Positions 46,276 through 51,333 of a stretch of DNA of 64,000 nucleotides are shown here, piece by piece. Under the pieces are notes generated by a model. The model had not been told where the DNA came from. It saw nothing but the letters and a program-made list of their open reading frames with translations, and searched no databases. The first letter of the stretch is position 1; every line of letters starts with the position of its first letter. A program made the translations under genes and the position numbers. Source of the stretch: Rhizobacter sp. (GTDB lineage: Bacteria > Pseudomonadota > Gammaproteobacteria > Burkholderiales > Burkholderiaceae_C); the NCBI GenBank assembly GCA_025350965.1, contig JANXWV010000015.1, positions 1 through 64,000 on the forward strand, written 5' to 3'.

Positions 46276-49200
46276 TCACCCGCCCGCAAGCCCGGCCCAG
46301 GCAAGCATCACTGCCTTGTGCGACGGCACCTGCGCCAGGAAGCTGTCGCGTGCCTCGGTGGCCATGGGCGCGGCGCGCGCCATCAACAGCGCATGGGCCT
46401 GCGCGATGAACTCCGGCGCGCGCGCGGAGCCGGCGGCTGCGAGCACGGCGTAGCAGGTGTGGTAGACCCACATCGGGTCTTCCGCGCCGTCCACCGAGCC
46501 GCCGCTGTCGAAGTGCGCAACGATCTCGTTGACCTGCGCCAGCGCGTCACTCAAGCGCCCGCCGGCCAGGGCCACACGGGCAAGCCCAGCAAGCGGCTCC
46601 GGCACCATCACCGGGCGGCCGATCTCGCGAAAGATCGCCAGCGAGGCCGCGTAGGCCGCCACCGCGTCGTCGGCCCGCCCGGACGCTGCCAGAGCATGGC
46701 CCTGGACGCACAGCAAGGTGGCCTCGAGGTCGCGGTCGTCGAGTTCCCGCGCACGCGCGATGGCCAGCTCGGCGACGGCAACGGTGTCGGTCAGGTCGCC
46801 GCGCAGGAACTGCACCTGCGCGATGTTGCACATCAGGTAAGGCTCGATGTGACGCTGGCCGATCTCGCGGCACACCTCGCGCCCGGCGCGCAGGAACTCG
46901 AGCGACGCGGCGTAGTTGCCGAGGTAGCGTTCGACGTCGCCGAGGTTGTTCAGCATGCTGCCCTCGCGCACCCGGTCGTTCACCTGGCGCGCGAGCAGCA
47001 GGCCTTGTTCGTAGTAGTCGCGCGCCTCGGCGTAGCGGCCACCTTCGAGCGCGAGGATGCCCATCTGGTTCAGCGCTGCGCTCTCGTAACGCTGGTCGCC
47101 GACCTGGCGTGACAAGGCGAGCGACTGCTCCACGTGCGCCTGCGCACCGGCCGTGTCGCCCTGGAACTGCAAGGCGCGACCCCAGTTCATGTGGGGCGCC
47201 TGGGCCGCCTCAGGCTCGCCCGCACGTTCCGCCCACGCCACCGCCTGTGCTGACGCTGCAGCCGTGCCTGGATAGTCACCGCTGACGAGCGCATGCGCCG
47301 CGCGCAAGCCCGCAGCGCGGGCGCGGCGAGCGTCGTCGTCGAGCCCATTGGCCAGGGCTTCGAGCGCCTCCACGTCGGCCAGCGCCTCGGCGCGGCGGCC
47401 AGTGTTGCTGAGCACGGCGCGGCGCTCCAGCAGAAGCGCAAAGCGGGTCTCGGCATCGGCCTCGGGGGTGAGCGCGAGCGCGCGGCCGAGGCAGTCGAGT
47501 GCCGCCACGTTGGCGTAGCTGCGAGCGGCGTCTTCACCGGCCTTGCGGAAGTACAGCGCCGCGTTGGCGTTGTCGCCGCCGCGCTCGAAGTGCCCGGCGA
47601 TCAGCCCGAAGTATTCGCTCGCGCGCTCGCTGGTGCGCGAGGCCAGCCAATCGGCCGTGCGGCGGTGCTGCTCGCGCTTGTCGCGCTTGAGCACGCTGTC
47701 GTAAGCCACCTGGTGCAGCAGATGGTGCTTGAACACGTACTCGTGCGCGCCTTCGAACGCGCTGGTCTCGCGGCCGTGCACCAGTTCGCGCCGCTGCAGC
47801 GCTTCGAGCGCCGCAGCCGAGGCCTCCGGCGCATCTGTGGCGATGCGCTGCAGCGCCTCGTCCCAGAACACATGGCCGATCACGCTGGCATGCTGCAACG
47901 GCGTGCGTTCGGCCGGCGGCAGGCCGTCCAGGCGCGCCTGCAGCACGCCGGCGAGCGTGGGCGGCACATGCACGGTGACGAGCTTGTCGGCCTGCACCTG
48001 CCAGGGCTCGGTGGCGGTCAGGATCACGCCGTCGTCGATCAGCATGCCCACCAGTTCCTCGGCGAAATACGGGTTGCCTTCGGCGCTGCCGGTGAGCAGG
48101 TCGCGCAGTGCGGGCGGCACCGTGGCCAGGCGGCTGAGCAGCGCGTCGGCCAGGTCTCGGCTGCTGCGGCGTGACAGAGGCCCAAGGTCGATGCGGTCGT
48201 GGTTGCTCTGACCGCTGCCCCAGCGCGGGCGCGTCTCGAACAGCGACGGCCGCGCCACGCACAGCAGCATCAGCGGCAGGTCGCGGCAGCTTTGGGTCAG
48301 GTGGTTGATGAAGTCGAGCGAGCCGGCATCGGCCCAGTGCAGGTCATCGAGCAACAGCACCATCTCGGCTCCGACGGCCTGGTGCTGCGCACGGAAATAC
48401 TGCGCCATGGCGTGGAACGCGCGGTCGCGGATCTGCTTCGCGTCATTGGCGATGCCGGCGATGTGCGGGCTGGCCGCGTAGTCGAGCCCGATCAGGTGGC
48501 CGATCAGCGCCGTCTGCTCAGAGGCGCGCTCACCGAACAGCGCCTGCAAGCCCTGCGCGAGCTTGTCACGGGCCAGCGCCTGAGGGTCGCCATCCAGAAT
48601 GTCGAAACGGCGCGCGAACAAGTCGCGCACCAGGCAGTAGGGCACGTTGTTCGCGTGCGGCTGGGGGCGCGAGTGGAAGAACGTGACGGGCGCCCGACCG
48701 GCCCGCGTGCCGCGCTCCTGCGCCGCGTCCTGGCGCTGCGTGAGCCAGCGGTAGAACTCGAACATGAGCCGGCTCTTGCCGAGGCCTGCGTCGCCCACCA
48801 CGGTGACCTGCCACAGCGTGCGCTCTTCTTCGAGCGTCTCGAAGGCTTCGGTCAGGCGCGCGAGTTCCAGGTCGCGCCCGACCATGCGCGTCTCGACGCC
48901 CTCGACACCGCGGTTGGCCATCCGGAAAGCGCGCGGCCTGGCCTTCAGCACCAGGTAGCTGCGCACCGGCTCGGCGATGCCCTTGACCGTGATGGGCGGC
49001 TCGGCATTCAGCTCGAAGGTGCCGCGCACATGGCGGTAGGTGTCGTGGCTGATGCGCAGCGTGCCGGGCGGCGCCGTCTGCTCCATTCTCGCGGCCACGT
49101 TGACGGCAATGCCGCGAATGCTGCCTTCGGCGTCGACCCCACCCCCCAGCAGCACCGGGCCGGTGTTGATGCCCACGCGCAGGTTGAAGCCGTCGAGCCC

Positions 49201-49638
49201 GAACCTGGCCTTGACCTGTGCGGCAAGCACCGGCGCCTCCTTGATGATCGCCAGGCCCGCATGAACCGCGCGCTCGGCGTCGTCTTCGCGTGCCTGGTCC
49301 GCGCCGAACACCGCCAGCAGGCTGTCGCCGGCGTACTGCAACACGCGGCCGTGCTGGGCCTCAACCACCGCCGTCAGCCGCGCGAGCGCGCCGTCCATCA
49401 CCGCATGCACGTCCTCCGGGTCGAGCTCGCGGCTGAGAACGGTGGAGCCGACCACGTCCATGAACAGGATCGTGACCGGCTTGAGCTGCTGGTCGCCGCT
49501 GCGGGAACGGGCACGCGCGGCGGCGAGCTTGTCGCGCAGCGGGCCAATGGCCATCTCGGCCACGATGTCGCCGAGCAACCCGCGTTGTGCGTCCAGCGCG
49601 GCAATGGCGGCTTCGATCTGTTCGGGCGTGTCGTGCAT
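46276..49638 (-). CDS. Class III adenylate/guanylate cyclase domain + AAA ATPase + TPR repeat protein
   Basis: KPVTILFMDVVGSTVLSRELDPEDVH; LQYAGDSLLAVFG; VVGDAGLGKSRLMFEFYRW Walker A; C-terminal TPRs; 1120 aa. Confidence 0.92.
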   Translation of the reverse strand: MHDTPEQIEAAIAALDAQRGLLGDIVAEMAIGPLRDKLAAARARSRSGDQQLKPVTILFMDVVGSTVLSRELDPEDVHAVMDGALARLTAVVEAQHGRVLQYAGDSLLAVFGADQAREDDAERAVHAGLAIIKEAPVLAAQVKARFGLDGFNLRVGINTGPVLLGGGVDAEGSIRGIAVNVAARMEQTAPPGTLRISHDTYRHVRGTFELNAEPPITVKGIAEPVRSYLVLKARPRAFRMANRGVEGVETRMVGRDLELARLTEAFETLEEERTLWQVTVVGDAGLGKSRLMFEFYRWLTQRQDAAQERGTRAGRAPVTFFHSRPQPHANNVPYCLVRDLFARRFDILDGDPQALARDKLAQGLQALFGERASEQTALIGHLIGLDYAASPHIAGIANDAKQIRDRAFHAMAQYFRAQHQAVGAEMVLLLDDLHWADAGSLDFINHLTQSCRDLPLMLLCVARPSLFETRPRWGSGQSNHDRIDLGPLSRRSSRDLADALLSRLATVPPALRDLLTGSAEGNPYFAEELVGMLIDDGVILTATEPWQVQADKLVTVHVPPTLAGVLQARLDGLPPAERTPLQHASVIGHVFWDEALQRIATDAPEASAAALEALQRRELVHGRETSAFEGAHEYVFKHHLLHQVAYDSVLKRDKREQHRRTADWLASRTSERASEYFGLIAGHFERGGDNANAALYFRKAGEDAARSYANVAALDCLGRALALTPEADAETRFALLLERRAVLSNTGRRAEALADVEALEALANGLDDDARRARAAGLRAAHALVSGDYPGTAAASAQAVAWAERAGEPEAAQAPHMNWGRALQFQGDTAGAQAHVEQSLALSRQVGDQRYESAALNQMGILALEGGRYAEARDYYEQGLLLARQVNDRVREGSMLNNLGDVERYLGNYAASLEFLRAGREVCREIGQRHIEPYLMCNIAQVQFLRGDLTDTVAVAELAIARARELDDRDLEATLLCVQGHALAASGRADDAVAAYAASLAIFREIGRPVMVPEPLAGLARVALAGGRLSDALAQVNEIVAHFDSGGSVDGAEDPMWVYHTCYAVLAAAGSARAPEFIAQAHALLMARAAPMATEARDSFLAQVPSHKAVMLAWAGLAGG

Positions 49639-49817
49639 CGGAAGTACTGCGGTCAAACGGGCGTGGCGCGGGCGCGGTGGGAGCGGTTTCAAAGACCCCC
49701 CGGTCAAGGGGGGGGCGTTACAAGGAACTCCTCCACAAACGGCCGTGCAACGATTACATTTTCGTCACAATCAAGCCAACAAAGTCCTTGACTTTGCTCT
49801 TGATGGGAGTTGCGTTC

Positions 49818-50483
49818 ATGTATACCAAAATTGTCGTTGCGCTGGGTGTGTTGGTGGTGTCCGGGGCCTCTTCGGGCAAGACGGTCAACATCACCGACTT
49901 CACGTTTGCCGGCCCCGTGGCGGCGGCCATCACCGGCGGGCCCGTGGCCGGGGTTGAAAACGTGCCGGCAGGGCAGTTCGTCGGCACGCTCGACGGCGCT
50001 TCTTTCAACGCCTATTGCGCCGAACTCGACCAAAGCTTCAATCTGGGAGGCACCTACAGCTACGACGTGCGTGACCCGTACACGCACTTCACCCCGCAAA
50101 AGGCCAACGCGCTCAGCCGCCTTTTCACCGCCACGGCGAGCTTCGTGACCGATGCCGACACCTCGGGTGCCATGCAGGCTGCCATCTGGGAGATCCTCTA
50201 CGAGACCGGCGCCACGCTTGATGTGTCGAGCGGCAGTTTCATGACCGCGCCGGCTCCGAACGATGTCGGCGCCATCGCGGCCTTCTCCGCCATCAATGGC
50301 ATCCTGGGCAACCTGGGCCAGTACGGCGCCAATGTGCAGCTCGACATTCTTTACAACGCCACCTCACAAGACTTCGTCATCGTGCACGATGTGCCCGAGC
50401 CCGGCACTTGGGCGCTGATGTTCGCGGGCCTCGGCGTGATCGGTGCAGTTGCCCGCCGCCGCAAGTTGGCGCTGCGAGGCTGA
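49818..50483 (+). CDS. PEP-CTERM sorting domain protein with thioester-domain-like motifs
   Basis: SD gggag 8 nt before ATG 49818; N-term hydrophobic MYTKIVVALGVLVVSGA; C-term VPEPGTWALMFAGLGVIGAVARRRK; YCAELDQ and MQAAIWEILYE motifs. Confidence 0.88.
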   Translation: MYTKIVVALGVLVVSGASSGKTVNITDFTFAGPVAAAITGGPVAGVENVPAGQFVGTLDGASFNAYCAELDQSFNLGGTYSYDVRDPYTHFTPQKANALSRLFTATASFVTDADTSGAMQAAIWEILYETGATLDVSSGSFMTAPAPNDVGAIAAFSAINGILGNLGQYGANVQLDILYNATSQDFVIVHDVPEPGTWALMFAGLGVIGAVARRRKLALRG

Positions 50484-50553
50484 GCGCGCCACCGACTCGA
50501 ACCCATGGGCGCCTCGGCGCCCATTTTCATGTGAAATGTTGGTGGTCGCCGAA

Positions 50554-51333
50554 TCACGGCACGAGCGACACGTCTCCGAAGTACGACAGGCTGCGGCCGT
50601 GCGTGTTGTCGGCATCGGCCGACACCGCCACACCGGTGATCTCGGGGTATTTGCCACCCGACTCGTCACCGAACATGCGCTGGTAATCGGCCCCGACGTT
50701 GCGCTTGTGTGACACCCACTGGCCCAGCCGCGCGGTACCCGTTTCGAGCACGAGAAAGCGGATGCGCTTGGTGAACGGGCTGGCCAGGCCGGTGTCCACC
50801 GGCAGCTTGTTGTCCCACACGTAGCACAGGGTCTCGGTCGGCACCTCTTGCCCCGACACCGACTGCGCCAGCGCGAGCTTGGTGCGTTCACCGAACGGCA
50901 GCTTGGCGCCGTCGAAGGCGAAGAACACACACAGCTTGGCGGCCGAGTCTTCACCGCTCTTGACCTTGAGGTCGGCCTCTTCGACCAGCTTGTCGACCCG
51001 CCAGCGCCAGCTCAGGGTCGTCTTCTCGGACGACGGCGTTCGCAGCGCATGCACGAGGTTGCCGTACGAGCCATCGGCCTCGACCTTCAGCACCCTTGAG
51101 CCGTTCAGGTCGGACACCGCGAAGCGTGTGGCCACCTTGTTTGGCAACGTGGCGAACTTCCAGGTCGCCGGGGGATCCCCGACCGGCGCTGCAGAGAACG
51201 CCGAGATGGCGCTGACGGGCGGTTCGTCAGCCGCGTGCGTGGCAGCCCCCACGGCACTTGCCAGGACGGCAACAGCAAAGCGAGGCCACCAGGCGCGGCA
51301 CATCGCAATAGGGAACGGGGTTCGGGCGTTCAT
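50554..51333 (-). CDS. DUF3047 domain-containing secreted protein
   Basis: TLSWRWRVDKLVEEADLKVKSGEDSAAKLCVFFAFDG...; QWVSHKRNVGADYQRMFGDESGGKYPEITGVAVSADADNT; N-terminal signal. Confidence 0.85.
   Translation of the reverse strand: MNARTPFPIAMCRAWWPRFAVAVLASAVGAATHAADEPPVSAISAFSAAPVGDPPATWKFATLPNKVATRFAVSDLNGSRVLKVEADGSYGNLVHALRTPSSEKTTLSWRWRVDKLVEEADLKVKSGEDSAAKLCVFFAFDGAKLPFGERTKLALAQSVSGQEVPTETLCYVWDNKLPVDTGLASPFTKRIRFLVLETGTARLGQWVSHKRNVGADYQRMFGDESGGKYPEITGVAVSADADNTHGRSLSYFGDVSLVP

Follow-up and report, generated by a model that had tools for sequence, protein, structure and literature searches.

Cys-Gln thioester chemistry is common to the thioester proteins of the complement C3/alpha-2-macroglobulin kind, which serve here as an analogy, and is shared by the thioester domains (TEDs) with which Gram-positive bacteria bind hosts or promote mating covalently. 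Such internal-thioester domains have been reported exclusively from Gram-positive bacteria (PMC4450167). In known TEDs the bond-forming Gln lies in the last beta strand (Walden et al., Miller et al.; PMC4450167, PMC6194298), and the central helix carries a Q-x-x-Phi-W motif whose Gln forms a hydrogen bond with the Cys backbone and is dispensable for the thioester (PMC4450167, PMC6194298); in SfbI the thioester is Cys109-Gln261. Class I TEDs (SfbI, FbaB, CpTIE, and PnTIE; PF08341) have a short linker from helix alpha3 to the last hairpin (PMC6194298), whereas class II TEDs (SaTIE [PDB 6fx6], BaTIE, and TIE-pLS20) contain at this point a seven-stranded beta-sandwich insertion of ~75 residues. 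For TIE-pLS20, encoded on a Bacillus subtilis plasmid, the Cys is needed for function (PMC8092201). Among proteins sorted by exosortases, the PEP-CTERM protein PepA makes exopolysaccharide cell-bound by a process that has been left unexplained (PMC9850573).

None of the open-access papers searched combines "thioester domain" with "PEP-CTERM", and those inspected that mention both exosortases and thioesters deal with other subjects. Here, we describe a gene from Rhizobacter sp., located in a window of 64,000 nucleotides (the whole stretch of DNA that was analyzed), whose product is predicted to be a minimal TED carrying a PEP-CTERM tail.

A PEP-CTERM protein with a predicted thioester domain

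The gene (49818-50483, + strand) encodes 221 amino acids. It is preceded by a ribosome-binding-like site read from the sequence, GGGAG 5' of the ATG (49805-49809, + strand), and followed by a terminator-like hairpin (50505-50524, + strand), a kind of site found twice versus 1.2 times expected by shuffling. Because the flanking open reading frames (ORFs) are divergent (46276-49707, - strand) and convergent (50554-51333, - strand), we regard it as a stand-alone, single-gene unit. The divergent ORF (1143 amino acids) looks like a regulator with adenylate-cyclase, ATPase, and TPR parts.

An N-terminal signal segment spans residues 1 to 21 (49818-49880, + strand; cleavage site approximate), recognized by eye as a hydrophobic run and modeled with low confidence over residues 1 to 20. 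At the other end, residues 191 to 215 (50388-50462, + strand) form a sorting tail, VPEPGTWALMFAGLGVIGAVARRRK, with a VPEP motif, a hydrophobic helix, and an Arg-rich end. This tail matches Pfam PEP-CTERM (PF07589) above its cut-off (E = 6.6e-9), and the protein scores 40.1 bits with NF035944 (PEPxxWA-CTERM; cut-off, 35). Translation and profile match thus bear out the reading frame, hydrophobic segment, and tail proposed in the initial annotation, and its lone Cys and Q-x-A-x-W motif are found exactly where it had placed them. The sole Cys is C67 (50016-50018, + strand), within FNAYCAELDQ, and the motif is MQAAIW (50172-50189, + strand), in which Q120 is encoded at 50175-50177 and W124 at 50187-50189 (MQAAIWEILYE).

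Between signal and tail lies the predicted TED (residues 22 to 190; 49881-50387, + strand). AlphaFold models the full protein with a pLDDT of 90.6 and the domain alone with a pLDDT of 96.0 (pTM, 0.92), placing beta strands in residues 21 to 85, helices at 93 to 105, 113 to 128, and 150 to 164, and final strands at 174 to 179 and 186 to 190, an order of beta strands, three helices, and two final strands that is TED-like. Cys67 closes strand 61-67 of the model, Q120 and W124 are on helix 113-128, and Gln184 (SQDFV; 50367-50369, + strand) stands two residues before strand 186-190. A Foldseek search of the PDB gave one credible match, the Staphylococcus aureus TIE thioester domain 6fx6, with a probability of 1.00 for the full protein and 0.99 for the domain; the runners-up reached 0.06 and 0.03, respectively. 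TM-scores to 6fx6 are only 0.43 to 0.47, which suggests that the TED is divergent.

This best structural match belongs to class II, with which the protein can also be compared in its YC[IV][DE]-like and late YQ-like motifs. However, helix 150-164 is followed by strand 174-179 after just nine residues, which leaves no room for the class II beta-sandwich insertion; the latter is absent. The window protein is also far from the 767-residue, multidomain TIE-pLS20. In its short linker, its beta-barrel and three-helix order without a sandwich insert, and its N-terminal position after a signal peptide, the model resembles class I TEDs. It differs from these in carrying a PEP-CTERM tail instead of an LPXTG/sortase signal, in lacking a stalk built from isopeptide or ester domains, in the Gram-negative environmental hosts of its family, and in scoring under the Pfam cut-off.

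The Pfam TED profile aligns to residues 65 to 138 (E = 0.0037; 18.1 bits against a cut-off of 22), and trimming the protein gives 18.9 bits, still under the gathering score. Of its relatives (see below), taken without signal and tail, the same profile recognizes 59 of 78, and any other family at most one; at full length, 56 of 80 are matched (E <= 0.1). Their best E value is 1.7e-5, compared, for scale, with 7.3e-5 (23.6 bits) for TIE-pLS20, and a few relatives probably already lie above the Pfam cut-off. The PF08341 search suggested in the initial annotation thus gives a sub-threshold match for the window protein itself and matches that recur in most of its relatives. Across the whole 4.3-Mb genome in six frames, the TED profile has three matches at E <= 1, one to the window gene and the others to two of its paralogues, carried on different contigs; since all three belong to the PEP-CTERM TED family, the motif goes beyond chance. 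A PF08341 search over the order returned nothing at E <= 0.001, which is consistent with a family lying under the Pfam cut-off.

Sequence searches of the PDB with queries P0001, A1, or A3 found no TED. The family profile A2 had a sole sequence match there, SfbI-TED 5a0l (E = 2.1), in which Q184 is aligned to YQNLL near the C terminus of the chain, an alignment that is suggestive only. When eight class II TEDs encoded on Gram-positive plasmids (L125-L132) were compared profile to profile, only the YC[IV][DE] stretch aligned, at a probability of 1.2%, and NCBIfam, whose models do not cover the TED body, gave essentially tail matches only for the window protein and its relatives. Taken from sequence and model together, the fold and key residues are well supported and indicate a divergent TED that is recognizable by fold and motifs, not a Pfam-level member.

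Relatives of the window protein

A first scan of genome contigs with P0001 alone gave no match. By tblastn, the genome itself yielded three full-length paralogues, on contigs C25, C47, and C60 (L002, L003, and L004), and the order a dozen homologues. Every full-length sequence has three features in common, namely, [YFW]C-x-[DE], Q-x-A-x-W, and, directly ahead of the sorting motif, a late Q-[DN]. Scanning GTDB species genomes for the helix motif yielded 182 relatives, 80 of which were analyzed; most are from Betaproteobacteria, with others in Alphaproteobacteria, Gammaproteobacteria, and Planctomycetota and in single MAGs labeled Acidobacteria and Bacteroidota.

Despite identities to the window protein of 38% or less, Cys67 is invariant in an alignment of 84 relatives (84/84), with Y, F, or W before it in 80, and Gln184 is invariant in all 83 that have a residue at this position, so that a Cys and a Gln are co-conserved throughout. 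The mature region contains a single Cys in 82 of 84 relatives, which strengthens the earlier argument that a lone Cys in an exported protein fits a thioester. Q120 is likewise found in 84/84, in a set that was picked by that very motif. The same three motifs are present in 16 relatives obtained by plain tblastn, where this bias does not apply. Also free of it are 13 further members found with a tail-less profile, all of which have the Cys motif and Q-x-x-x-W, with the late Gln identified by eye. Tails vary within the family, being VPEP-type in most and VPLPA-like or VPAP-like in others, so the TED has been combined with exosortase signals of more than one type. The PEP-CTERM TED family is large and apparently undescribed.

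Exosortases

The window protein has the signal segment (by eye) and tail of a PEP-CTERM/exosortase substrate, and its genome encodes exosortases, as the initial annotation had proposed to check. Three were identified (PF09721), each best matched by the XrtB model TIGR03113 above cut-off, on contigs C88, C47, and C76 (L121-L123); the gene on C47 is ~8 kb from the TED paralogue of that contig. Over 299 genomes of the order, a tail-less TED profile occurs in 22, of which 20 encode an exosortase, compared with 95 of the 277 others, a strong enrichment (Fisher p = 1.8e-7, with genome relatedness ignored).

The probable thioester pair

All three sequence hallmarks of class I TEDs, namely, [YFL]C(Phi)(zeta), the Q-x-x-(Phi)-W helix, and a late Gln that lies inside the last strand or precedes it, have counterparts in the window protein. 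Y66-C67-A68-E69 supplies the Cys motif. The central-helix motif M119-Q120-A-A-I-W124, with Met in place of Thr, is the equivalent of TQxx(Phi)W (PMC4450167, PMC6194298). The late-Gln motif S183-Q184-D185-F186-V187 is only loosely matched, having Ser at -1. Cys and late Gln are 117 residues apart, compared with 129 to 153 in three class I structures. This spacing, the lack of a CGEQ-type motif (the sole Cys is followed by AEL), and a different fold all distinguish the protein from complement C3/alpha-2-macroglobulin.

The initial annotation had proposed a TED on an exosortase-sorted Gram-negative protein, with Q120 as the partner of the Cys. Its domain assignment is supported by the recurrent Pfam match, the co-conservation of Cys and Gln, and the predicted fold, but the choice of Gln was probably wrong, since Q184, which it overlooked, fits the TED literature. 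In addition, the eight Gram-positive plasmid TEDs, when aligned, retain the Cys and, late in the sequence, a YQ-type Gln, and have no helix Gln. On these two grounds, the Cys67-Gln120 pairing was rejected; the thioester partner of Cys67 is most likely Gln184, and the Q120/W124 motif is more probably structural.

Proposed mechanism and alternatives

We infer how the thioester would form, how the protein would be processed, where it is displayed, what it targets, and that it has a role in adhesion or matrix cross-linking, as follows. The protein would be exported via its signal peptide, and an XrtB exosortase encoded elsewhere in the genome would process the PEP-CTERM tail, cleaving near the PEP motif and fixing the C terminus to an acceptor. 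During folding, Cys67 would attack the side chain of Gln184 with loss of ammonia, giving a buried Cys-Gln thioester beside which the Q120/W124 helix packs. As Q184 is eight residues before the PEP motif, a lone TED would remain, its reactive Gln some eight residues away from the anchor, and would be displayed without a stalk on the cell surface or within the exopolysaccharide matrix. There a neighboring protein, a matrix polymer, or a colonized surface would supply the nucleophile, most likely an amine or sugar hydroxyl, that opens the thioester and becomes covalently linked to Gln184. Given the stalkless domain and the reliance of these bacteria on exopolysaccharide, matrix components or neighboring cells seem better candidates as targets than a distant host receptor. 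We consider it probable that the protein is such an exosortase-displayed minimal TED, whose Cys67-Gln184 thioester acylates some nucleophile on the cell surface or within the matrix.

The main competitor accepts the TED and its Cys67-Gln184 bond and takes the latter to be mainly stabilizing, or its reactivity to be incidental; the protein would then be a structural part of the matrix and no covalent linker. The absence of a stalk would suit such a protein, as would a sorting motif that follows the predicted reactive strand after a few residues and environmental carriers without an obvious single host target; Gram-positive adhesins, by contrast, project their TED outward (PMC4450167). Yet known TED thioesters react with methylamine and, in two cases (SfbI and FbaB), with a lysine of fibrinogen (PMC4450167), and a thioester, being hydrolyzable, would be surprising as a bond of purely structural purpose, so that we hold this reading to be rather unlikely. 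Pairing Cys67 with Gln120 instead could appeal to a helix Gln as invariant as the Cys, in loci picked by its motif and also in members found without that bias. Since Q184 is equally invariant, the helix Gln is not essential for the thioester in characterized TEDs (PMC4450167, PMC6194298), and the plasmid TEDs retain the Cys and late Gln without it, this pairing is very improbable.

Two further possibilities dispense with the thioester. A TED-derived fold could present Cys67 as a free thiol for intermolecular disulfides or metal binding, and one conserved Cys per mature chain could indeed give a disulfide-bonded dimer; this seems improbable, however, as it leaves the invariant Gln184, the TED fold, and the profile match unexplained. 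That the protein is no TED at all, an unrelated PEP-CTERM protein with chance YCxE and QxAxW matches, would agree with the sub-threshold Pfam score, the low TM-score, and the weak profile-profile match to one TED set. It is scarcely credible in light of TED matches that recur over a divergent family in which nothing else recurs, and of a TED as the only credible Foldseek match.

If the acylating, exosortase-displayed TED is correct, covalent adhesion chemistry would extend to Gram-negative environmental biofilms, in the form of a large family of single TEDs with exosortase tails in Betaproteobacteria and with relatives in Alphaproteobacteria, Gammaproteobacteria, and Planctomycetota. The family could covalently glue cells or slime. 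More tentatively, its members may be widespread Gram-negative two-ended covalent matrix cross-linkers, in which the exosortase anchors the C terminus and the thioester bonds a second polymer, protein, or surface via Gln184, so that a biofilm or floc matrix is chemically cured; we regard this as possible but doubtful. The TED reading also offers a testable chemical route by which a PEP-CTERM protein could make exopolysaccharide cell-bound, a question left open by the floc study (PMC9850573). The floc_PepA proteins (NF033554) of that system share with the TED family a signal peptide and a VPEP tail, as well as an association with exosortase genes and, in part, with sigma-54 promoters. Kinship with PepA was rejected. 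NF033554 matches TED family members weakly, and it does so through the tail, since TED motifs are lacking from the PepA proteins that were inspected. Because PepA itself is not a TED, it serves as context only for the mechanism.

Promoters and gene arrangements in the family

A strong sigma-54-type site was found upstream of 10 of 78 relatives, versus 0.2% expected, among them the TED genes of loci L094, L091, L060, L112, and L057; the region upstream of the window gene contains no convincing sigma-54 promoter. At L112, the site is near-perfect (TTGGCATGCGATTTGCT), and directly upstream of the TED/PEP-CTERM gene lies a gene for an exosortase that seems to be fused with an EpsI-like part (L112:3123-5639), the two genes being a candidate dedicated exosortase-substrate pair. 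The TED/PEP-CTERM gene on a contig labeled Bacteroidota (L083:542-1270) resembles those of methylotrophic Betaproteobacteria, and this contig may be mis-binned. Finally, TED genes are arranged in tandem, two to four in a row, at 7 of 80 loci. We observe such arrays at L043, L079, L092, L098, L101, and L119, as well as on a Planctomycetota contig with four TED-like genes in a row (L116:2376-5498).
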